DNA of 64,000 nt, from NCBI RefSeq assembly GCF_000002425.4, contig NC_037255.1:11300710-11364709 (forward strand). The letters run 5' to 3'. Positions within the stretch are counted from its first letter, which is position 1; the number at the start of each line of letters is the position of its first letter. The translations under genes and the position numbers were made by a program. Below the pieces are notes generated by a model. It was given only the letters and a program-made list of their open reading frames with translations. It had not been told where the DNA came from and ran no database searches. The DNA comes from Physcomitrium patens. Its lineage: Eukaryota; Streptophyta; Bryopsida; Funariales; Funariaceae. Shown one piece after another: positions 14,142-63,956 of the stretch.

Positions 14142-17100
14142 TCATAGACTGAAATGGCTGATGGCAGTGTCCAGCGCTTGATGCGTCGGTCCAACGATAT
14201 CTTTCACCTTGAATCCATTTTTGTAGATTTTGAATGTGGGCACAAAACTGACTTGCTCGGCCTTAGCGAGATAGGGATTCTCTTCAACGTCAACCTGCAC
14301 AATTTGGAAGACACTGGTTCAGGCTTCCACTTACATTGACAAAATAGAGATGAGTGAACTGTGATGCAGTTGAGAGGGATAATCCGCGTCAGAGTATTGT
14401 TTTTCAATGTGCAATTCAGATCATACCTTCAAGAAATTTACTGAAGGATGCAACTTGCAAAGCTGGTCAACGTAGGTTGCCATTTGTCTACACTTATCAC
14501 TCCACTTGGTGTTGAACTGGACTACCGAAACACCTGATGCGACACAAACTTCGGGTCAGAAGCCAGAAAGTCGAAGAAAAAATATGTATCAAACTTTCAG
14601 TATATATCAAAATATGTTCAAATATATCTGATATTTTGATATATACTGAAAAACAGGACATGTCTATTACCTGGTTGTGAGATAGCCTCTCGAAGTCTGT
14701 CGCTGCTCGAGATGTCTTCGACTTCATCCCTAGGTTGCGACACAATAACCTGTTCACCTTTGGACTTCTTGTGAGCAACTTGTACTTGATACAACGTCTT
14801 CGCAATATCCAAATCCCCGGGCATTTCCTTCTTCAGCGTTTCATAATCCTTCACGGCTTTGTCCCACCTCTCCATCTTAACATAGCAGTTAGCACGGCGA
14901 AGAAGCGCTTTTAAGTAATTGGGTTGGGCTTCTAATGCAGACGTGCAATCCTCAACAGCCTTCTCATAATGGCCCAGCTTCAATCTGCAAGCCGCCCGAT
15001 TGCATAACAAGATAGCGTTGCTGGGATTATATTGAAGCCCCTCGCTGTACGCGACAGAGGCCTCGAGTATCTTCCCTGCTTTGTATAGATCATTGCCTAG
15101 GGTTCGAGCATTCGCTACAGCACGAGCTTGTCTCAACATGGGCGTTACGTCAGCGTTCTTAGGGTCGTAGTACGCTGCCTTCTCTGCTGCAATTACTGCT
15201 CCTTCGAATCTGTTCAAAATCATACAAGCGATTTCGTGTTAGACCAAGGGGCTTGAATGGTCTAGTATTTGCCAGAGAATCACCCACTAGAAAGAGTAAA
15301 ACGGAAAAGGATGAATAAATCGAGGCGTACCTGCCAAGAGCCATGTCAATCTGAGCTTGCACAAGGAGCGTGGTAGTATCAGCTGGCAGGCTGGTGACTC
15401 TGCGTAACATATCCTCCACCTTCTGAGCAGCTAAAAGAACAGAATCTGCATCTTCGTGTTTCTGCTGCTTCAGAAATGCCTCTGCCTTTAAGGCAAACAG
15501 CTGCACCAAAACCAAGAGGCGTAAGCACTACAAGCCACGAAGAAATTTCATTCTGGTGAAAATGACGAGAAGTTCCGTCCCCAAAAGATCATAGTATACA
15601 AACCTGAGGTGCAGAATCGGCTCCAGCAACCACGGCAGCGTCACTCTCCCTCACAACCGAATCCCAATCAGCCGCCTTCCTAGCCTCAAAGCACTTCATC
15701 ACGTGCTTCTCCACCATCTCAATCCGTTGCAGCTCAGCAGCATCGCTTCCCTGACCTGCTAATTTCACATGCTTCTTCGCCCCTTGTATGCGTCCCAGCC
15801 GCAACATCAAAGAGGCCAGTCGCTGATGAGCCCTGAAATAAGTCGGGTCAAGCTTGATTGCTTCCTCGCACTCTCTGACAGCCTCCGGAAGCTTCCCGAG
15901 GCCTGTCAATGCGGCAGCGCGATTGCTACGATACGGGGCCCTGTGCGGGGCCAGGTGAACAGCTCTATCGTACAACGTAAGCGCTTCTTGAAAATTGCCC
16001 TTCTTGTACTGGTCGTTTCCAGCTCGCTTAACCTCCTCGGGGTCGCCGCTGGAGAGCATCCTCTTGATGTGTACACCCTCACCGGCTGCGTGGATGTTCC
16101 CTCTTGGACCGGACAGTGTATCAGAGGATAGTCGTGGAGTGTCGCACTGCGCTCGTGCAGCTCCTTTGCTTACATTGCCATTCAAGGAACCTCCTCCATA
16201 CATAATATTTCCACTTCTACTGAGCGTAGATGGCGGCATAACTGGGATCGTTGTCTTAGATGAGGACAACCGAGGCGTTGATGCTCCTGCAGGGTGAATC
16301 ATTTAAAATATATTAAACGATTGTTAGAATTGTGAACTAAGGTATTAAACTGCGTCTGCCGTTAGCCAGTTGAGAAGCTATGGAAGTGAAATGACACCTG
16401 TGTTGAGACCGCCGCCAGTGTATGAGCCGCTGGATATAGCGCCAAACAAATTGCCCACATTGCAGCTGGCGCTGCGCGTGTGATAGGAGGCGTTGCTAGA
16501 CGTAGGGCTGCTGCTGGAAGCACAGCCTCCGGTGGTAAACAAATTCTCCGAGCTGCCCGTGCGAGCTACCGTGGGACTTCCCGCAGTGGAACTACCGCGA
16601 GAGCTGGTGCTGCCATTCTCGGTGCAGGAGGCTGTTTTCGTCTTCATCCCAGACGAGCCATCCTTAGAGAACTCGGCACCCAGTGAGTATCGCCTTGTCT
16701 CACGGTCCAATTTAGGGCCACTGTCGGAGCTGAAAAAATCCGCTGCCTCTCCTCGAAGAGCAGCCATGTCGGAGCTCCCCCTCCTGTGAAGCCTGGAACC
16801 ATCAGTGCTGTGACGCCTCACGGACACATCTGCGACTTCTGGAGCCAGTCGGGGTGTGTCTGCGGGTAGGTTCTTGGGGGCAAATTGCGCACTCGAAGGG
16901 GATGATGCCATTGGAGGGCTTGGCGGCTTAGCGGACGAACCGCCATGAGTAGGAGCAAAGGAAACACTTCGAGCGTGGCGAATGCGGGGAGTGCTAGAAA
17001 CTTCTGTCGTCCCTGCCCTCGGGACCTCAGAAGAGTCACTCCGCGGGACAGCTTTTGATGGTTCAGGTTTAGCTGATTGGGAGTTGCTCTTGACGTTCTC

Positions 17101-17433
17101 GGGGTGCAGAATTGGGGATCTGGAAGGGCGGGAGCTAGCACCCTTCACAGCGCTTCGGCTTTTCTTCAAAATGCCCCCAAACTGACTTTCAGAACTCTGC
17201 GGGAAGCTGAGATTCTCTTCCGCGAGGTTGTAAAGATTCTTGTAGTTAAAATTGTCCTCCTTCCCAGTGGAGAAGCTTCCGGTACGAGTGTCGCTCAATG
17301 TATTCGCATTGAACCGCGACCATCCCTGAAACCGGTCAATTTTGCCGTTCCCCGAAAGCTTGCCGACGTACATACCTCCATACATGTCGTAAGTGCTGGT
17401 GGGCACAGATTTGGTCTCCGCCTCGCAGGCCAT
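14142..17433 (-). CDS. TTL: TPR repeat-containing thioredoxin-like (TTL) protein, complete
   Basis: Six exons with GT-AG borders and consistent phase: 17433-16398, 16286-15604, 15500-15331, 15209-14671, 14533-14427 and 14294-14142, giving 895 codons plus a TGA stop. Residues 1-425 are a Ser/Gly/Pro-rich, probably disordered N-terminus. TPR motifs occupy about 428-530 and 660-765 (NDQYKKGNFQEAL, then NDLYKAGKILEA and NYLKALLRRANC types). Residues 810-895 form a thioredoxin fold ending in PTFKIYKNG. The redox motif WCGPC reads WSDKC (820-824), so one catalytic cysteine is lost, as in plant TTLs. Plant TTLs are cytosolic or membrane-recruited scaffolds in brassinosteroid, cellulose and stress signalling; that role here is inferred. 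The start is the first ATG after an in-frame TAG at 17467-17469. It is longer than the roughly 680 residues of flowering-plant TTLs, through the N-terminal region. Confidence 0.95.
14595..14651. repeat. Perfect 21-bp inverted repeat inside a TTL intron
   Basis: Arms 14595-14615 and 14631-14651 are exact reverse complements around a 15-nt spacer. They occupy nearly half of the 137-nt intron between TTL exons 4 and 5, so the pre-mRNA would fold into a hairpin between donor and acceptor. Confidence 0.9.
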
Positions 17434-18740
17434 TTTGCATTCGCCAGTCACACAGCTAATGTCTCTCTACCAGGAGTTTCACGAGAGCGAATAATGAACC
17501 GGGCACTCACTGCTAAATCATTCTCGTAAAAGATTGCCGATGATCACAGCTGCACCACTTCGCCACGCAGAAAATGATATTAGTTTCTTGACACCGAATC
17601 TACCAAACGAATTTCATTCAATAGACAAGAAATACTTTTTGTGGTCTAAAATTTGGTCGAAGTGCCGTTGATGCACAGTGCCTAAGCGCACTGGGTTCCG
17701 AATAGGCTTGCGATGGAACTCAACATGAATGTGCGAGACACACAACTGCAGAAACGGGATTCATTGCACACAACTGTCTAAAGGTAACTCCTGACACCAG
17801 CGGTATCAAGAAACAGAGACTTCGACAAAATACTCTACGCCCGGCAGATTTCCGTTTATGGCGCGTATGAAACGTCACTTCCGACCAGAGCAAGAATGCT
17901 AAGTAGAAGGAACATAGCCGAGGCGCGCCAGGTCATCAGGAGATACCAAGTTTCATGTTTCGATGGAGGACAATACACAATCAATACAAAGGACTTTCAC
18001 TCCCACAGAAGGTCAATGTAGCTAGGATGGTAAGTCGTCTGGAAGCGTGGATCCTTCACGATGACCACAATTTAGAAAGAGAGGAGATGATTCGGGGACA
18101 ATGACTCTTCAGGTCAAAAGCATGTCTAGTTCTACTCGGGGTCCACGTCTGCACGACACTGCAAAACAGAATGGCACATCAAATTGATCCAAAGTATCGC
18201 GAAGTCTTCACGCGCACCAAACTCCCGTTCTCAAATACAATGCAAAGCTTCGTACCTGCAAATGCAATCCAGTGGCAAGAACATGGACGCCAAGGTTCTT
18301 CGGCTCCACAACCTGACAGTCGCAGCTTCAATCCGCAAAATCCACAAACTGCACCTCAGAAAACGCAACTCCAACTCAAACCTACACCATCATACGCCTC
18401 CTCTTCCACACCTGAGAATTGAAGTCAATAGAAGAAGAAGAAAAAAAATCCCACTACGACTGTCTCTTGCTACGATGACGCTTGTGTCGCTTCCTCATTC
18501 ACAACAATCAATCTCCTTCTTCAAACTTCACTCAACGCATGATCAATCAGTCAAAATCCCCGCGCGATATCTGAACAACCCCTGCCGACTACCACTACTG
18601 AAGCAATCTTTCGCGTAATCGCCTACTACGCAACGGATCACCCGCCTGGGGTACCATCCAGTGACAACGCAGGCTGTGGGAGATTTTGATGTCCGGGTCT
18701 TGAGGAGATGAAGGCAGCTTCGAGAAGAGAGAGGGAGAGA
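17434..18740 (-). promoter_or_regulatory. TTL 5' leader region (inferred)
   Basis: Between the TTL start codon and the TATA-like element lie about 1.3 kb of CpG-containing, GC-balanced sequence. This is unlike the CpG-poor DNA beyond 18.85 kb. It reads as a long 5' UTR, possibly with an intron, but no single donor/acceptor pair stands out. The - strand start is C/T-rich (CTCTCTCCCTCTCTCTTCTC near 18720-18740), as in many plant leaders. An 83-codon frame on the opposite strand (18171-18422, ATG start, Gln/Pro/Ser-rich) matches nothing I know. Confidence 0.4.
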
Positions 18741-52677: not shown

Positions 52678-55668
52678 TCAGTTAGAGAAAATGTCACGAT
52701 TCGCGTGATCGTCATAAACACCATTGACAGCTGCCCGTGAGTTGAGGTGAGTTAAGGTGGGACTTTTTGGTGTAGATGATGCTCTGTCATTTGCAAGTTC
52801 CACCGACACGTCCGAGTTCCACCACGTCGATGGACATTGATGCTGAAGAAAATGTCGCAGAATCTCATAATCGACATCGTCATTCCAAATATTATCCGCT
52901 GGGATGTCCCAAAACCCAACACTATCAGCAGGTACGTAAGAATCCAACGCATTGGCCACCTCTTTACCTTTGCGCTTGTCATTACACATCAAGGCAAGAC
53001 ACCCTAACGCTGTCTTTGATACTTCCTTGTTTCCATCCACATTCAGAGCTATATCGGCAAGTTTTTGAAGGACAGCTGGACTTGATGTAATCTCAATGGT
53101 CGGGGGACTCAACCTTATCAACCTCAGCAGAAGCATAAGGCTACAGAGCCTGGGGTCAGTGCCAGCAAATCCAGCGAATTCTTTGGGAACAGCTAAATCC
53201 AGGAAGGACACCAGAGAGTCTATTAGGTCTTCCGAACCGATACAGACGATGATGTCTTTGTTGTTGGCAATGTAATGAGTTAAGATCATCGCTGGTTGAG
53301 CAAGCATGCGACCTTCAGCACCAGTGGAGCAAATGTAACGGCTCACGGCTAGAAAAATGTCCACGTAGGAGCGGCCAGACAACAAATACTCTCGCCCTTG
53401 GAAAAGCAACAATAAGGAGAGTATAAGCCTTCTCACGTCATCAGGATCTTCTGAACACACGCCCAAAACAATTGCCTTTTGTACTTCACGAAGGAATCGT
53501 TGTTCGAGAACCTTGCCGAAGAAGTAATCAGGTATTCGGAGGAAGTGATCCACAAAGAATCCACCCAAGTACATTTCAGGCACATATGATTCCTCCCTTG
53601 AATTCTTGTAGAGCGGCTTGCTGTCGTCATCTGATACAGTGGCCAGTATCCAGCGAGTAAAAATTGGCTGATCAAGTTCTAACGACCAAGATCCAAGCCC
53701 AGGAACCAGCTGATTCTTCACGAAGACTTGAAACTTAATAGCCTCCTTTGTAAGTGTCTGATAGACACAACGGCGAGTTTCATCGTCCCACACTAGCCTT
53801 GGAAGATACACCGTCTCCTTATATAAATCACATGCTCGTGCTGGGTTATGCGCCAGAGTAGACAGAAGCTCCAGAGGCATGAGTAACATTAAAGTTCGAA
53901 AAACAAGCGGCTTTGCCCCATGGTAGCCTGGCGCAAGCATGTCCATCAAGTCATCAACGTCAGTTGACATTACTCTGATTTTTTTGGACTCGCTAAATGG
54001 ATCCTTCGGCTCTTTGGAATCTCCAAGAAAACTGACACGATGGCTGACTCCGCAGCAACACAGCAAAAGTTGTCCAAGTATGCATGATGCCATTAGTCTC
54101 ATGTGAGGGGTAATCTTCTCGGTCTCCATGATCCCACTTCGCAGGCTGGGTAGATCAACATCACAAAAGAGGCATAACAATGGAAACAGCAGCCCGCTGC
54201 TAGAGAAATAGTTCGTAACCTCCACACTGGCTGAAATATTCTCACTCAAGAATAGTAGCGCATCCAAAGTGGCGTGAAGAACTGCTTTCATTTCTTCACC
54301 GTTGTCCTCTGTCACGGCATCCCAGAGGAATATCCCAGCTAACCCGAGAAGATTTGATTCAAGTATGGCTTCCTGTGAAATCTTATCGTGAGCCATCTCC
54401 TTGAAAACCCACATAAGTTCAGTCCAAACTTTGGGGGAACAGTGATCCATTGATGCAATGTCCAAGAAAATTTGCAGCTTGAATTTTTTCATCAGGTTGA
54501 GCTTGCCATGGGACGTTGCAAATTTTAGGCATTCCTTTAATGCAACCAGAACTTGGACATACTTCTCAAGCTCTACTGCTTGACTACGCTGCTCTTGCAT
54601 TCCTTCTGAAACTATCACGTGCTTATCTTCAAATTCCTCAGTTTCGTTCTCAACTTCCGTCAGGCTGACGACGCTTCGTTCCCTCTCAAGGTACTCCATC
54701 ATGAGGTCCAAAAAGTCAGCATTGTCCGGGAAGTCAGCTCCCTCCAACTTCCCAGACGCAATGTGGTTTACGAAAACACCACCAATTACAAACTCCTTTT
54801 GAAGACAAGCATACTTAAAATTGTGCAACCATTGCTCTTCATCCTCGTCACGCCTCGTCATCTTCTCTAGAGCCCTTCCACGAAGTTCCACTCGCACATC
54901 GGCGGTCCACATTGTAGTCGGCATTCGAATGTCTGAACCTACCATGTTGATGAACTTGCCAAGCTCCTCATCATCTTCCAAGCAAGATAGAAGCGGCTTG
55001 GGGATCAGATTCGAGAGGGAGGTAAAGTGGGCTCCATCTCCTCGCACAAAGGAGCCAAGAACATTTGCAGCAGAGATGGACAGTGTGGAAGTTGCAGATT
55101 CAGACTTGGGATCAACGCCTGCAGGTGGTACTACTAGCAACAGCAACGGGAGATGGATGCCCCTATGAATAATCCCCTGTCTGTAGTCAGAATCTCCTGC
55201 AAAGTGTTTCAGACAGTTCAATGCATGATATGAAACGGGGCTCGGACCTCTAGACGGAGTTGCAGTGGCATCGTTAACAGCGCAACTTAGAGCCCATTGC
55301 ATGCCTTCCTGCCACCTGGAGTCGCCCCACAAGTGCGTCCTCCCACCATGGTGAGAGGATATCACTTCTAACAGAGACAGAGAACCAGCGACTGCTAAGT
55401 CGAGAGTACTATTGGTGCTCCACCGAGTTCCAAGCGTGAGGATATCCAACGCGAAGTTCAAAGATGCCTGAGGTAAGTCGTCAAGCTTAGTGTTCACAGC
55501 AACAACCCTCCGCAGAACTTTGACTGTATGTTGCAGAATCTCTATACAAACTGGATCAGAGCTCTCCGTCTCAGCCAAACAAGTTTCTAGAGAGGGCGAT
55601 GCCATTGTAATAAGAAGATCCTCCGCATCACTTGGCAATGTCAGTGGGAAACGGTCGACGACGTATGC
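52678..55668 (-). other. Giant terminal exon of the RME-8-like gene
   Basis: A single uninterrupted exon of 2,991 nt (996 codons plus stop) carries IWN repeats 3 and 4 and the C-terminus. The acceptor TTGCAG lies at 55669-55674. The open frame continues upstream into the intron to 55743, but the phase from the preceding exon fixes the start. The two GGVFV and GGFFV motifs that follow IWN3 and IWN4 match the VGG-Y/F-V signature of the family repeats. Confidence 0.85.
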
Positions 55669-58600
55669 CTGCAAGACATGAAGCATGACACGTAAGGAAC
55701 AATGCAAATAATCACTATTGTTATGAAAAGCTGTGAAGAGCATTGAAAAGTGAACATACTCTTGACCAACAATATCATCAGTAAAAAAAGTGAAGTGAGG
55801 TATGAACCAGGGCTTGTAGAAGGAGCTCCGTCCGCTGTAGTATCTTCGACCGCATTGGATCTCCTGATGTCGCTAAATTCTGTAAATCCTGGAAGATGCA
55901 AAAGTTGACCATAAGGCTGTTAAAATGTTTATTAAAACCATGATGATTTCAGAGGCACTTGTACATGCGAATAATGAATGATACTAAAAGAGAAATTAAA
56001 ACTTACCAGCATGAGGCTGCTGAGAAACCCCTCAGGGTTGCTTATAGGGTAGTCGCGGAAGCGCTCCTCATCCAGGAGATTTTGTAGATAGAAAGGAGCA
56101 GAGAAGACCATGTCTGTAGCATGGAAGGATCCATCTTAAATAGCTGCTTGGTAAAAATTTCCATATGTAGAGAAAGAACCTGAGATTCATGATTGCAATC
56201 ATTTAGAAAGTGGATGACTACAATGAACTCTGAACTTACCAACCAACTCAGGGTAGAAGATGGGAGTTCGGGGTGTATGCACAAACAGTGCCATAGAATT
56301 GGTCGCTCGAGCTCTGACAAACGGCTCCAACTCATGCGTAAGATGATCTAGTAGTCGTTGCCGCATGGCTTTATTCCAGATAATATCAGGTGCATCTTGT
56401 TCGGTATCTAGCACTCCAGCAAAGACTCTATACGAGTCCATATCCTGCACCAAGTACACATAAAACATGAACGGTGTACATTGAATTCATATAGAATAAC
56501 GCGTGATTCGATTCTCCTGTATTCTAGGACAAGCAGACTCCCTAACAGGACAACTGTTTCCCCTCATACGCTTGCCAGAACGAGCCCGATCAAGATTCAA
56601 ACTAAACAGGCAGGTAAATATGGGTACATACCTCAGCCATAAGCCTTATAATGAGCCCATCAGGTAGGTACAGTCGGAGTGCACTGCCTTTGCAAGGAGA
56701 TTGGTCGCTCACGTTGATTTTGGGCATTGTGCTTTGATCCTGTCACCAAAACTTGAATAGACGTGTTACAAACTCATACACTAAGTCTGAGAGTTATAGA
56801 AACCGTGTATCTTATGATAGTGTGCCTGCACCCCAAATCCACCAATAGGATATAACTAAACCGCAATTCAAATAAAGAACTAAAACTGTGCAAAACTAAC
56901 GAAGAAGGAATAACGGCGAAGTACCTGCTGTAAATGGGATTGCAATAAGAACTTGCAGACCATGTCTTTCTCCCAGTCAACGAGATCCCCGGCAAGAAAT
57001 TTCCACAACAGAATCTCAAACGCACCTAGCGAGTGTAGCTTTGCCATAGCACTCCTATTTTCCTTAGCAATTGTCGAGACAATCTCTAAAGTCCTGATAA
57101 CAGTATTAAGTGAGTTATCAGGATTCCCAGAGGTAATGCCAGGTCGATGCAATTAAAAATAATACACGAACTAAAAAGTAACACAAACTCCTAAGCAGAA
57201 GCCTAACAAGGAATTCATCAACTCAAATGCAAGGAAAATCTATAAAGAAGAAAGTGAGGCAGGCCCAAGCAGTGCTTTGACAACCTGCACAATAAATCAA
57301 AGAACCCATATGTACCTGCCGAATTCGGGAGACTTAAGCCGCAGTAGAATTTGCACTAAGTGGCAAAGAGTCTCGTCCTTGGAAAGGCTCAAAACGGCAG
57401 CCGACGGTGGATAATGCTGTTTGAGATTGCTACTATCACCAGATACTCTGTTATTTTGAGGAGGACGAGTGAAATGAATCACGTATCAGAACCATAGCTT
57501 GCATGGACTTACATTTGAAACCTCGTCAGTATCATTACATCAAAGAACTAAAATCCAGACTGCTCTTGCTTCACATTCAAGTCACTGCAAAATTTATTGC
57601 ACTCATTGATAACAAAGTGAGAGGTACCTCAAAAGAGTTTCGAACTGATCCAAGACTAAACCCAGCTGGATTTTGGGAGGCACTTTTTTGTCTTGCCATC
57701 TAATTCCATCTTTAGCATCTAAGCTGCCATCTTGAACCGATTTACCAGACATTTCCCGAGCCATTACAGACGGAACTCGCACCAGCCTTGACATACCATC
57801 TGCGCCAGTGTAGTTGAGGATTTCAAATTGCCCCTTCTCTAAAGCGCCCTTGCTTGTCCAACCATTACATTCGAATAACGTCTTATCCTTACAACACTGG
57901 AAATAAAAAACGAGGCAGGATGTAACTTTTGAGTCCCTTAAAAGTTAGCAAAAGAAAACCATATAGCTTTATATAGACGTCTTTATATAGCTTTATTTAG
58001 CTTTATATATATGTCTTGTATGACCACCATATATTCAAACCAACATCATACACTTCACATACAACATATTTTCTACATTCACAGAGCTAGGCTATGCGAG
58101 GAAGTTACCTTCTCTGCAGATAACACCATTAAAGATGCTATAACAGAAACTCCACCTGCGTGGGTAAAGCGAACTACATTCTCTCGATCGCCATTCTCCA
58201 ATGTGGCCAAGAGAAAAATTACCAGTTTGAACACAAAAACCTCATGTTCACTGTCAATGACTTCCCGCAGCATCCCCACTACTGTCTGTAGAAAAGCATT
58301 CATACATACGTACAAAATTAGATTTTAGATGTTTCCTTTTGTTTTTGACGATTCTTAAAAACGAGGACGAAACCAGAGAGTGAGAACTTGTACGTCAATG
58401 ACCTGAACTTTGAAGCCGTGAAAAAGTACAGAATTCTAGCTTATTCTTTACATAATAGCATTTTCTCCAGAGAGCAAACAATTTAGAAACATACAAGAAG
58501 TATGATTCTTCGTGGGTTCCTCCTCAGAAACATACCTCGATGACTTTTAACGTCTCCATACAAGAGCTAACATCATCTGTGTGACGTTCGTAAATCCAAG

Positions 58601-61600
58601 TCAACACATGCACGGCTAAGCGCAGATCTATTTCAGGTAGATTATTGTTTCCAAACAATGGAGTGAAGCCCAGGAGCATAGCTTGATAGACTGACTGAAA
58701 TAAAGGTAGCGGGTCTCCAAGCTGCATCACAAATCAACAGAGACATTGAGCTTACACGTAGAACTTTTGCATTTATCATATGCTCTAGAACTTAGTTTAT
58801 AGACAACATCTTGAGAATTCCATAATAGAATAAGACCAATATAGTCTTCGCAATTAACTATTGCAAAATCATGGAGAATAAGAAAACAGCTGTTGTGAAA
58901 TTGTATTGACCTTCCAGAATATATTGTAAAGACCATGCTTAGGAGGGTGATGATCAACAAGAAGCTCGAGGTGGACGCCATTAACAACGGACCCTGCATG
59001 TCACCCAAACCATCTTTTGATGATCAAGCGTAGTTCAGATTGGCCAGAACGAATTGGGGCAAGGAAAATCAGGCTAACTGCAATGTACACCTCAATCACA
59101 CCAGTGAAGTAATCGTGAAGGAGGTAAATTCAAAATTAGAATTTGAAAAATCTACACTTGTGCATAGCAAGACTGACCTCCGCCTTCGCTCGCAGTGGAG
59201 TATATAAGCTGAACATCTGTTGAATTGTACAGTATGTCGTTACTTGCTTCTAATGCCGTGTAATACCCTTCCAACTCTTCCTTAAGAAACTGTGAACATC
59301 AGCGAAAAGTTACATTCAAGTCATCGACTGAATTCTAAAATCAATGACTTCAGACACCAATGTCCGCAAGACTGCACTAAACCGAATATTTATATTTACA
59401 CATCATGCAAACCGAACAAAACAGAAAGAAACAGCACCGCCTCATTTTATACCATGGATCATTGATGTAAATAATACCTTCTTCAACTCAGAACGCTTAA
59501 TGTCATTCCATACAAGAAGTGGCGTCTCCACACTTCCACTGTGTAGCAAATCTATGGTGTCCTTCCACGCAGAAAAATCGCTTATGACTTCTTTCTACAC
59601 ATTGCGACACAAGGTTAGCAACGTCTCAAGTGGACTCCACTTCATTAGACGGGAAATCAACGATTTAGTAATGGCAAGTATAGGCATACCTTGTCATCCA
59701 TCTCTATCACTTTATTGGTGTACAGTGTCATCACGCCCTACGCACCAAACACATTGACACTGTTAAGCAACTTAGAGGAAAATAGTCGTTGCATTGCAAT
59801 TAAAATTAGGAAAATATGTATTTTCAACAAGCTAACTGGCACAATACGTACTCGTTTCCTTACAGGAATACCTGGAAGCCAATTAAGAAGTTCCATTACC
59901 TTGGGTAATACAGACAAAAGCAGCTTCTTCGCTTCTTCATTATCGTCCATCAAAAAAAAGATCTGACTACTGCTCAGCAAGCGAAGATGCGGCTTCATCG
60001 AGAATACTGCTGTGCTCAAGTGTAATAGAAGCACGCACCGACTGAGGCAAATACTCTGAACAAGACATCCAAGGTCATACATTAGAGTCGGACCCACTAG
60101 TGGTATAATGGAATTATGTGTATTAGCTTCTTAAGGGCCTCCAGGAAGGCGTTACCAGACGACGAAATGATGAGAGTAGACGTCAGGAACGACTGATTTC
60201 TTGGAGCATCTTCTCAAATACTAGAAACAAACTATTGAAATTGGAATCTAGAGAGGACATACTTGCAGGTGTTTGCGGACAACGGGGGACATGATTGTGA
60301 GCAGTGCTTGCAGAAGGATCGAGAGTCTGTTTACATCGCACACAGGGAGGTGAAATACTGGACCATTACAAAGATCCTCTTGAGCAAAGCGAGCAAAACA
60401 TTTTGGAGGGTCATCCGAACATGGAAATGATGTGCTAAGAGTAAGAGGAAATGTATGTTATTTACCTGGTGTAAACAACATCACTGGTTAAACGGAAAAA
60501 TGTGCATAGAAGGTCTGCAGTTGACATTATAGATGCCTCATATGCCTGAAAAGCATGTGTCAAAAATATCAGGTTCGAAAGACATTAGAATGACAAAAAT
60601 GATAATGTGGTAAGTTAAAAAGAAGACATTAATAGAATACTGTCTGGGTAGGAATATACTCTGAGCCACAGACGTCCTGCATCATTATCTGTAGGTGGGG
60701 AACTAAGCGCAAACGTCAAGATGTCCAAGATACCTATCACCTGTGCAGTAATTCGTGAAGGATAAGAACCTTCATAGAGAAAGAAATGTACCAATAGTAA
60801 TAGATGAGATAATATATTTATTCTCAAAAGGTTACATTGTGCAAGCTTACTCGGCATGAAAACATGTGAACAAAAGAGAGAATCAGGGCAGCAAAAAGAG
60901 ATACAAAACCTGCAAGGAATTCTTCTTGGGGGGTGCATGCGTATGTAGTAATGCGACTAGTTGCTGTAGGTATTCTAAAGTTAGCAGCGACATTCTGTTG
61001 GTAAATTCTTGCTGCATGTACAGGAAGATATACATAAAGGGGTTTGTTACTGCAAGAACTTTGAAGTAAATATCATAAACATTCAACAGATACACCTCAG
61101 TATTTACTATAATTGCTGCTACGTTGTACGCCAAGAACTTGAAACACATCACTCCACACTCCCTTCTTTAAGCACTTGCATAGTAATCTCAAATTATTGA
61201 ATTCAGATTTTTGAAACTTTTACCTTCGATGCAACGTGTCCGGCTTCAGTGGAACCAGTTTGAACGACAAATTTGACGGCTGCACGTATGACCAGCGTGC
61301 CGTGATAAGAGATGACACTATGTTTCGAACGGACGCACTGCAATGAAGAGATGAGACAACATTGTCATTTTTGTTAACTCCTGCTTCGGACTGTGTCAGG
61401 ATCCAAAACTCCTCAGTCACATCGAAAATCTAGCACAGTACATAACAACCGGTGAAGAAAATACCTGGAAAAGGACCGATGCAATTTCGGGTATGCTTCC
61501 AATGGAGTTAAAGCAAGCTTTGGATCCCAAAAGCCTAACAAGCACCATGCAACATGTGGCAACTCGTACAGTATCTGGCTTTTGCTTCCCTAAATCACAA

Positions 61601-63956
61601 CAATTCTGAACTTTCAGTACACGGTCTCATCGGATCCCAGCTGTGTCCGTCATATCCAACTACAGTAGGGGATGCAGTAATTTCTAAGAGAGTAGTAGCA
61701 CTTAAAAGCGAGCGACGCGTGCGTATGATTGAACAGTTTATGATGCCATGCAAGTCGATCATAACTGCATATCTCAAAGTCAAAGAAAGCAAGTTATCTT
61801 ACCAATGGTTTCCTTCAGGGTGTCAACAACAGCTTGAAGAACTTTAGCGTCAGAGCATTGCGATTCTCCGATCTGCATGACTGTATGTTAGGCACTAGTA
61901 AAGCCAAAATCGAATAGGTTGACATAGCACTTCAACACATGATTGCGGGGCTGTAAATTGACACCAGAAAATCAACATTCTAGAACTTTGGTATTTCAAA
62001 ACAAAAATATGTTGATAATTGGTCGCTCGCCTTTCCATCTAAAAGCAATGATTTTACAGCACAAATCAGGAATTCATTGTCCGACTGCTAGCATATGTTG
62101 CTAGAAATATTATACAACAGACAAATTCTTAAAATCGTACAAGAATATTTGCAGCATACTCCTTCAATGGTAAATGCAATGCCCCCGCTTCTTTCGTTGA
62201 ATTGAACGCTGTCATGAAACGATTCAAGTAGAATACCTCGCACTCAACCTGAAATGTAATGCTAGCATCAGTAGAGATAGCAGACAAGATTTTCAACCAT
62301 ACGCGATTTTTATCCAAGCTTATTTCTGCGAAATCACTGAGCAGAGCGCCTGAATGTCTCAACCAAAAGTGCACACTGAACCTAATTCAGAGCGATTCAC
62401 GTGAAAATATCTATGATAGGTGTAATGTCTCGCATGTAGTATAAACAACATTCAGTGACAATGTGTAGATGGAGCTAACACCTGGTGAAGGTTACTCTGT
62501 TGCTCTGGAAACGTGCAAGAATGATATGGCTCCAAGCGGATGCTGAATGTGGAGCCCTTTTCCATGCCCATCACGTCAGCTAAGGTTGCAACGAAGTCAT
62601 CTCGGTTTTTAAGCAGGAAGTGGCAATCTTTCCACGATGTGAACTCCATGACAACCTCTTTATCATTCGTCTCACTAACTACAACACCGAGCAAGTCTTC
62701 TAGACTGTATTCAGAAATCGCCAAGGATTAGAAAGCTTCAAGCAAAAAGAAACCAACTACAGTGTGTCAAAACAGCGTCAAAACTATACGTTTACAATCA
62801 TTTTGTTCATGGGCTCCTCAACTTTAAGAGGAAAAAACACAACAGGACATGTTCTCTATCATGGAGACCGGTCTTATGGACTCCACGTGAGTTCGCAATT
62901 GAAAGTCGTAATCAAAGGGAAACAGACGAGGTGTACCTGTGAACATTTATGATGTCGCCTTCGAAACTTTCAATGAGAAGGTGCTTGGTAATGGACAAGC
63001 TATGCAACCTATCTGGATTGTGGGATCTAGATGGCTTCACAGCTTGAAATTCGTAAAGAACTGGATATTCTCGCTGCATTCAAAGAGCAACTCTAAGTCT
63101 CTGAACACAAAGGATGCTATGTACAATGGATGACATGGTACGAAGCTGGTGACATTTAGCTGCCACTAGAAACGCACATGTCGGCGGCTAGTCTCCAAAA
63201 AAGCGATTCGATTTAATACAAGAAATCAGGTTAATGCACCATTATTGAGAACAATGTAATGTCTGCTACACTGTACAGTACATTTTGTTCTCAGCTGTAC
63301 AGAAACATAACCAAGCCAAAGCTGCAACAGAATGCTCAAATACTTACAACTTTCTTGTAGTGCGTGGCTAAGAGGTCAATCATTGCATCTGATTCTATTC
63401 TCTCAATCTCCATGTCACGTTTCAAATGGACCTGCGATCAATTTTCAGAAACGGATTAAATTGTTTTTCTTATCAAATCTAAATACGAATCCGCACTCAC
63501 GCTCTTCTACTATGTACAGAAGACTAAAATCTAAGGTTAGCTAATCACATAAATTGGCAATCTAAGGGTCCTTCAGCTCAAATTCTGATTGTAAGACTGT
63601 TCAAGGAAGTATCTGGTAGCACGCCCTTTACGTGCGTTGATTTCAGAGGGGTGTGCGTGGCAAGAACCTTTAAACTCAATTAGAAGCACATTCACTTGAC
63701 CAATTGAGATGCTAACCTCAGCTAATGGCTCATCTTAACGTAATGCGACCATATCAAAAACTAATTCCGTGACTCTTTCAGGTGAGCAGGTGTATACCTT
63801 CATGTTCCTCTGAATAGCGGAAACAAAAGCCACCGAATCCTTAACTAAGAGTCGCATGGTTCGTGATTTGAGAGAGATCAGCACAACTTGCTCATCGTCA
63901 CTGAGAATTTCGAGCTTAACTATGTCCTGAAAATTAACCTTCTTCGAGGCCTTCAC
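52678..63956 (-). CDS. GRV2-like: RME-8/DNAJC13/GRV2-like protein lacking the J domain (5' end outside window)
   Basis: 27 exons, GT-AG, consistent phase, 2,143 codons here: 63956-63798, 63431-63348, 63073-62937, 62704-62482, 62248-62141, 61872-61803, 61589-61465, 61337-61224, 61011-60910, 60740-60660, 60545-60466, 60434-60263, 60055-59864, 59737-59690, 59594-59478, 59289-59178, 58993-58911, 58721-58536, 58285-58109, 57896-57628, 57447-57316, 57093-56925, 56739-56632, 56444-56240, 56113-56007, 55888-55808, 55668-52678 (TGA). Residues 1-200 here resemble the PH-like N-terminus. IWN-type repeats start at LVWNDIKRSEL (about 593), IIWNKAMRQRL (1037), MWTADVRVEL (1399) and LVWDDETRRC (1773). Helical armadillo-like sequence fills the gaps. 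RME-8/GRV2 proteins act on endosomes, with Hsc70 and retromer, in sorting. The J domain expected near residue 1120 is missing. The exon model is by eye; family assignment rests on remembered motif order. Confidence 0.88.
60435..60465 (-). other. Apparent 31-nt intron
   Basis: Between exons 60545-60466 and 60434-60263 the phase-compatible splice uses donor AG|GTAAAT and acceptor CTCTTACTCTTAG, leaving only 31 nt. Reading through is impossible because TAA follows at once. No other acceptor upstream of the conserved part of the exon restores the frame from this donor. The alternative is a donor at GAT|GTTGTT with an acceptor at CAAGAG (about 100 nt), which drops some residues. Confidence 0.4.

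Follow-up and report, generated by a model that had tools for sequence, protein, structure and literature searches.

An intact RME-8/GRV2-type gene without a J domain, one of four in the moss Physcomitrium patens

The window, a 64-kb stretch of the Physcomitrium patens genome (C3:11300710-11364709), carries on its minus strand an intact RME-8-type gene that is confirmed to have no J domain at sequence level. Its reading frame is open, its J-free junction is common to four gene copies, it encodes an RME-8_N domain and four ordered IWN-like motifs, and it is under purifying selection. We favour, with moderate confidence, the view that the locus is a selectively kept J-less paralogue of RME-8/GRV2, one of four that stand beside two J-bearing genes, and that it acts as a J-independent scaffold of endosomal sorting. 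PMC9642905 and PMC12404652 describe RME-8 as a J-domain protein with mutual control of J domain and IWN repeats, which may operate from one molecule of an oligomer to another. Given the missing central J domain and HPD, we class the window protein as a J-less relative, not a true RME-8 co-chaperone.

The gene encodes a protein of 2241 aa in 29 coding exons, of which 27 (exons 3-29) fall within the window (Table 1). In agreement with the first-pass annotation the frame is open throughout, from an ATG at 64676, 676 bases past the window end, to a stop at 52678, and every intron is GT-AG. All gene models, of this gene and of its paralogues, are computed; for the window gene we started from core blocks, most of them paralogue matches, and let splice score and frame decide the exon borders. 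For exons 27 and 28 the cores were seeded from the coordinates of the first-pass annotation, which had set two exons (56113-56007 and 55888-55808) around a 118-nt intron. The 29-exon model reproduces this arrangement and, since the cores were seeded, it is the recurrence of the borders in three paralogues (C12, C2 and C1) that gives independent support. Exon 27 ends in GFLSSLML followed by GTAAGT, and exon 28 starts after CAG with DLQNLAT...LLLQAL. Elsewhere in the window, open frames with TPR-like repeats lie on the minus strand at 14618-17466, resembling a plant TTL-type gene, and scans for Rfam families and tRNAs across the window were negative.

Table 1. Features of the J-less gene, in window coordinates
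Feature	Position	Strand	Basis or remark
In-window part of gene, coding exons 3-29	52678..63956	-	29-exon model, GT-AG, near-identical exon plan in 3 paralogues
Exons 1-2 and ATG	64676-64104, outside window	-	adjoining stretch
RME-8_N region, in-window part (protein residues 24-653)	59717..63956	-	Pfam PF19432, E 5.3e-40
Exon 17, IWN1-like motif ETPLLVWNDIKRSEL	59478..59594	-	gene model and motif scan
Exon 26, IWN2 motif APDIIWNKAMRQRL	56240..56444	-	hhalign, collinear to canonical RME-8, probability 99.2, E 1.3e-19
Exon 27, end of IWN2 block (DMVFSAPFYLQNLLDEERFRDYPISNPEGFLSSLML)	56007..56113	-	gene model
Intron at J-domain junction, 118 nt	55889..56006	-	no HPD, no DnaJ
Exon 28, 27-aa linker at the place of the canonical J domain and its N-terminal flank	55808..55888	-	same borders in 4 paralogues
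Intron after exon 28, 139 nt	55669..55807	-	no J domain
Exon 29, single 996-aa exon: post-J region, IWN3, IWN4	52678..55668	-	paralogues 65%, 43%, 42% identical
IWN3-like motif PTTMWTADVRVELR	54880..54921	-	motif scan
IWN4-like motif LPRLVWDDETRRCV	53764..53805	-	Arg where canonical moss C13 has Glu

The absence of the J domain was established at several levels. At E<=10, DnaJ (PF00226) finds nothing in the assembled window protein or in those segments of the C2 (309 aa), C12 (311 aa) and C1 (324 aa) paralogues that run from IWN2 to the post-J region; as a positive control, the matching 343-aa segment of the canonical, J-bearing gene on C13 gave DnaJ at 4e-11. A six-frame DnaJ search of the whole genome (470 Mb, 101 contigs) returned 92 matches (150 of 152 candidates scored), both canonical RME-8 genes included, and none within the spans of the four J-less genes. 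The window gene span of 11,999 bases has no HPD in any of its six frames, in keeping with the first-pass annotation, and neither has the C12 gene span; two HPD triplets in the C2 span and one in the C1 span lie outside the encoded proteins, and all four J-less proteins lack HPD. That a gap in the assembly, alternative splicing or trans-splicing has hidden a J exon is scarcely credible, and we found no point in support of it. The introns at the junction, at 118 and 139 nt, are too short for a J domain and hold neither DnaJ nor HPD, the 20-kb loci examined, including the window gene span, contain no Ns, and the J-free junction recurs at three other loci. A hidden J exon and an assembly gap, both named in the first-pass annotation as refuting cases, were rejected on these grounds.

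Exon 28 measures 27, 27, 33 and 33 aa across the four J-less paralogues. From the end of the IWN2 block to the next collinear anchor they have 181, 181, 197 and 197 aa, compared to 263 aa in canonical C13 and 266 aa in a putative GRV2 sequence; relative to C13 the J-less spacing is 66-82 aa shorter. This anchor is weak: the canonical post-J segment ranks it best of 90 windows, yet with a probability of 1.5-1.7%. The first-pass claim that the exon with LLLQAL corresponds to the stretch directly behind the J domain was not upheld, the profile comparison being non-significant; the nearest collinear anchor is the one just described, about 180-190 aa further along. A related reading, in which a degenerate J domain without HPD survives as a helical hairpin in exons 28-29, draws on a global five-sequence alignment that sets these exons against the canonical J helices, a weak placement with which a forced full-length profile alignment agrees at low confidence. 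However, besides the absence of DnaJ matches described above, a sliding profile test over 90 windows gave a best probability of 1.5%, and the junction windows ranked 3, 5 and 10 at 1.2-1.4%, matching only 11 flank residues and not the J helices. On this test the reading was rejected and we hold it to be very unlikely.

What remains of the protein is recognisably of the RME-8 type. The Pfam comparison of the assembled window protein, proposed in the first-pass annotation, identified RME-8_N (PF19432) at E 5.3e-40 (137.9 bits, cut-off 25.4) and, besides it, nothing at E<=10. The RME-8_N protein scan covered the window protein; the domain is visible only once this is assembled, and when eight ORF pieces were scanned singly Pfam was uninformative. 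A genome-wide PF19432 search by single frames hit only the two canonical genes, at six places in total, and we read its failure to detect the J-less genes as a consequence of their small exons. A profile of the four J-less proteins aligns with a canonical profile (C13 plus a putative GRV2 sequence) at probability 99.2 (E 1.3e-19) along a collinear stretch that starts ahead of IWN2 and reaches IWN3, and the end of exon 26 together with exon 27 is 35.5% identical to canonical C13 across 62 residues. IWN-like motifs stand in canonical order, i.e. LVWN, IIWN, MWT and LVWD at residues ~690, 1135, 1498 and 1870, two before the J position and two after, each with its following block. The statement that all four IWN repeats are kept therefore stands for their number and order, but not to the letter, as only IWN2 is literally I-W-N; canonical C13 likewise varies (LIWN, IIWT, IIWN, LVWS). 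The YLT motif is absent from the J-less C-terminal tails and, as YLT, from canonical C13 too. A PDB search with the last exon gave two matches, both at E 1.3, which we take as chance.

The window gene is not alone. A search with its last exon led to loci at C12:3921320 (65% identity), C2:5072858 (43%) and C1:22016539 (42%), as well as stop-bearing fragments on C13 and C3, and the assembled C12, C2 and C1 paralogues encode 2264, 2800 and 2768 aa. The C3-C12 pair is 69.8% identical and the C2-C1 pair 79.1%, with ~49% across pairs and 21-24% to canonical C13. All four copies show the same J-free junction, and 27 of the 28 introns of the window gene are common to all of them in position and phase (one being offset by one alignment column in C12), the remaining one being common to C12 only. 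By contrast canonical C13 has 22 introns, and not one of the 28 comes within 4 alignment columns of them; at ~22% identity parts of the alignment are unsure, and a few common positions may have been overlooked, but in the well-aligned IWN2 block the introns of the J-less genes and C13 clearly differ. The C2 and C1 proteins carry a Ser/Pro-rich C-terminal tail of ~500 residues which the window gene and C12 lack.

A search of the genome for a second RME-8 gene with a J domain, advised in the first-pass annotation, revealed two, with HPD kept and DnaJ matches at C13:2016502-2016618 (46.7 bits) and C4:16583580-16583696 (43.9 bits). Canonical C13 is 65% identical to a putative Arabidopsis GRV2 sequence, which guided its model, and this model probably misses a short stretch near the third intron. 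DnaJ loci on C7, C11 and C1 with a split J domain were considered as canonical RME-8 and dropped, as by eye they look like what we take to be ARG1-type DnaJ proteins. No related locus was confirmed in the prokaryotic and viral contig collections. Decayed J-less fragments with several stops are also present (L039 6067-8961, with one stretch on the opposite strand, and L040 5802-7272). A third canonical-type copy, at C3:4391217-4394370 (L044 2217-5370), is decayed, with stops and frame breaks, and its IWN2 and J exons were unmatched; it illustrates what a wreck looks like in this genome.

Both J-less pairs are under purifying selection. Nei-Gojobori dN/dS is 0.165 for C3-C12 (2235 codons, dS 1.13) and 0.193 for C2-C1 (2765 codons, dS 0.60), and substitutions are in excess at third positions in 28 of 29 exons of the former and 29 of 31 of the latter. 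Exon 28 is the sole C3-C12 exon without this excess, which its C2-C1 counterpart shows, and its identity is below the protein average in both pairs (15/27 residues for C3-C12, 22/33 for C2-C1). A decaying pseudogene would be consistent with the faster protein change compared to the canonical genes (dN 0.186 for C3-C12 against 0.027 for C13-C4, at dS 1.13 and 1.12, the canonical values coming from just 380 codons, all in the conserved IWN2-J region) and with the decayed fragments of both types elsewhere in the genome. However, the decayed copies look different, having stops and lost exons, and the open 2241-aa frame, the intact GT-AG splice sites and the dN/dS of 0.16-0.19 in both pairs make this reading highly improbable; it was rejected on the dN/dS and splice sites. 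The first-pass view of a J-less paralogue and not a wreck is thus borne out by the purifying selection in both J-less pairs and by the J-bearing genes in the same genome.

The dS near 1.1 in both C3-C12 and C13-C4 indicates that one duplication, perhaps of the genome, may underlie the two pairs. The C2-C1 split, at dS 0.60, is younger than either. Over the IWN2 block (214-229 columns) the J-less proteins are 26-30% identical to plant canonical proteins and 24-27% to a putative human segment, compared to 40-42% between the plant canonical and human sequences, and this near-equal distance, below the plant-human identity, indicates that the J-less clade is either very old or fast. A tree of the IWN2 block (unrooted, seven rows, with a long-branch warning) was not relied on.

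Two further features of canonical RME-8 have gone with the J domain. PMC12404652 reports that PI(3)P binding by DNAJC13 requires K17, W20 and Y24 of its first PH-like fold, and canonical C13 has TKHSWRGRYKR with the spacing of these human residues, a correspondence by spacing and alignment only. Neither a W nor the K..W...Y pattern occurs in the first 75 residues of any of the four J-less copies. At the position equivalent to worm E1962 in IWN4, as judged from the spacing of E1962, N1966 and E1967, the J-less copies have Arg, Arg, Arg and Cys and C13 has Glu. According to PMC9642905, the J domain of C. elegans RME-8 docks on IWN3-IWN4, and E1962K or E1962R improves SNX-1 binding, E1962K being shown to weaken J docking. 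The IWN4 Glu-to-Arg change of the window gene matches this direction.

These losses bear on what the protein might do. With the PI(3)P residues gone in four copies endosomal action is not assured, and at 21-24% identity to canonical RME-8 function may have moved outside the RME-8 pathway. The faster protein change described above likewise speaks against the scaffold reading. That the J-less protein is a neofunctionalised solenoid, outside endosomal RME-8 traffic altogether, would suit this lost signature, the deep divergence with its 0/28 introns common with C13, and an IWN2 block near-equally far from plant and human. Against it, purifying selection has kept all four IWN blocks and, in the window protein, RME-8_N, and we judge it unlikely. 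The main rival to the scaffold reading is regulation of canonical RME-8 in trans, in which the J-less protein would join RME-8 oligomers and its IWN3-IWN4 would dock the J domain of the partner and hold it inactive, as a dominant-negative or competitor. Docking and autoinhibition between J and IWN3-IWN4 of different oligomer molecules is what the authors of PMC9642905 favour, J-bearing partners are encoded in the same genome, and the IWN3 and IWN4 positions are kept. The docking acid, however, is replaced by Arg in three copies and by Cys in the fourth, and its reversal weakens J binding in the worm; we consider this reading a real but minor possibility, somewhat ahead of neofunctionalisation. 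The same IWN4 residues and the lost PI(3)P signature in four copies oppose, in its simplest form, the suggestion in the first-pass annotation of a competitor or adaptor at endosomes.

According to the favoured scaffold reading, the J-less protein would serve endosomal sorting as an alpha-solenoid scaffold that works independently of J, with its solenoid and IWN surfaces kept for partners that may be sorting nexins or RME-8 itself. It would be unable to recruit or stimulate Hsc70, and without such recruitment there would be no uncoating or cycling by the HPD route. It would act by forming or tuning RME-8/SNX assemblies, possibly as an oligomer partner of canonical RME-8, and loss of the PI(3)P signature suggests it would reach membranes via these partners and not via the first PH-like fold. 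Loss of the J domain and of the IWN4 acid would then agree, as a protein without Hsc70 engagement would no longer keep the J-docking acid.

The J-less proteins resemble RME-8/DNAJC13/GRV2 (KAM2) in RME-8_N, in four ordered IWN-like motifs, in their size of ~2200-2800 aa and in the IWN2 block YPEL..YLQNL.DE.RF..YPI. They differ from it in having no J domain or HPD and no N-terminal K..W...Y, in the change of the IWN4 Glu to Arg or Cys, in their 21-24% identity, and in that no intron was found common with C13 of the same genome. The first-pass statement that the J domain recruits and activates Hsc70 in every known RME-8 may be too strong, as the Fig. 1 legend of PMC9642905 has a mark for RME-8 homologues with mutated key DNAJ residues. 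These too have the RME-8 backbone and presumably an inactive J, but the moss set lacks the entire domain in each of four copies, and J-bearing paralogues stand in the same genome. The nearest laboratory counterpart is the DNAJC13 HPD-to-alanine mutant (PMC12404652), an RME-8 likewise unable to engage Hsc70, in which the HPD mutation raises endosomal localisation in human cells, a point in favour of the scaffold reading; here by contrast the change is natural, the whole domain is absent and the first PH-like fold is without its PI(3)P residues too. Titles and abstract openings among the matches listed in our literature searches contain no report of a J-less RME-8; in PMC4488524, on Leishmania chaperones, the phrase 'lacks the J domain' refers to another protein and a table gives RME-8 with a J domain.

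It is plausible, though we put it forward only tentatively, that a lineage of RME-8 gave up Hsc70 recruitment for good, leaving four J-less genes, probably kept via whole-genome duplication, from which the J domain, the IWN4 docking acid and the PI(3)P residues have gone, and which would serve as J-independent scaffolds tuning the J-bearing RME-8 of the same cell. Such a natural J-less set beside J-bearing paralogues, in a moss in which targeted knock-outs are routine, provides a test of what the remainder of RME-8 does without its chaperone, and the coexistence of the two types allows us to ask whether J/IWN regulation works in trans.
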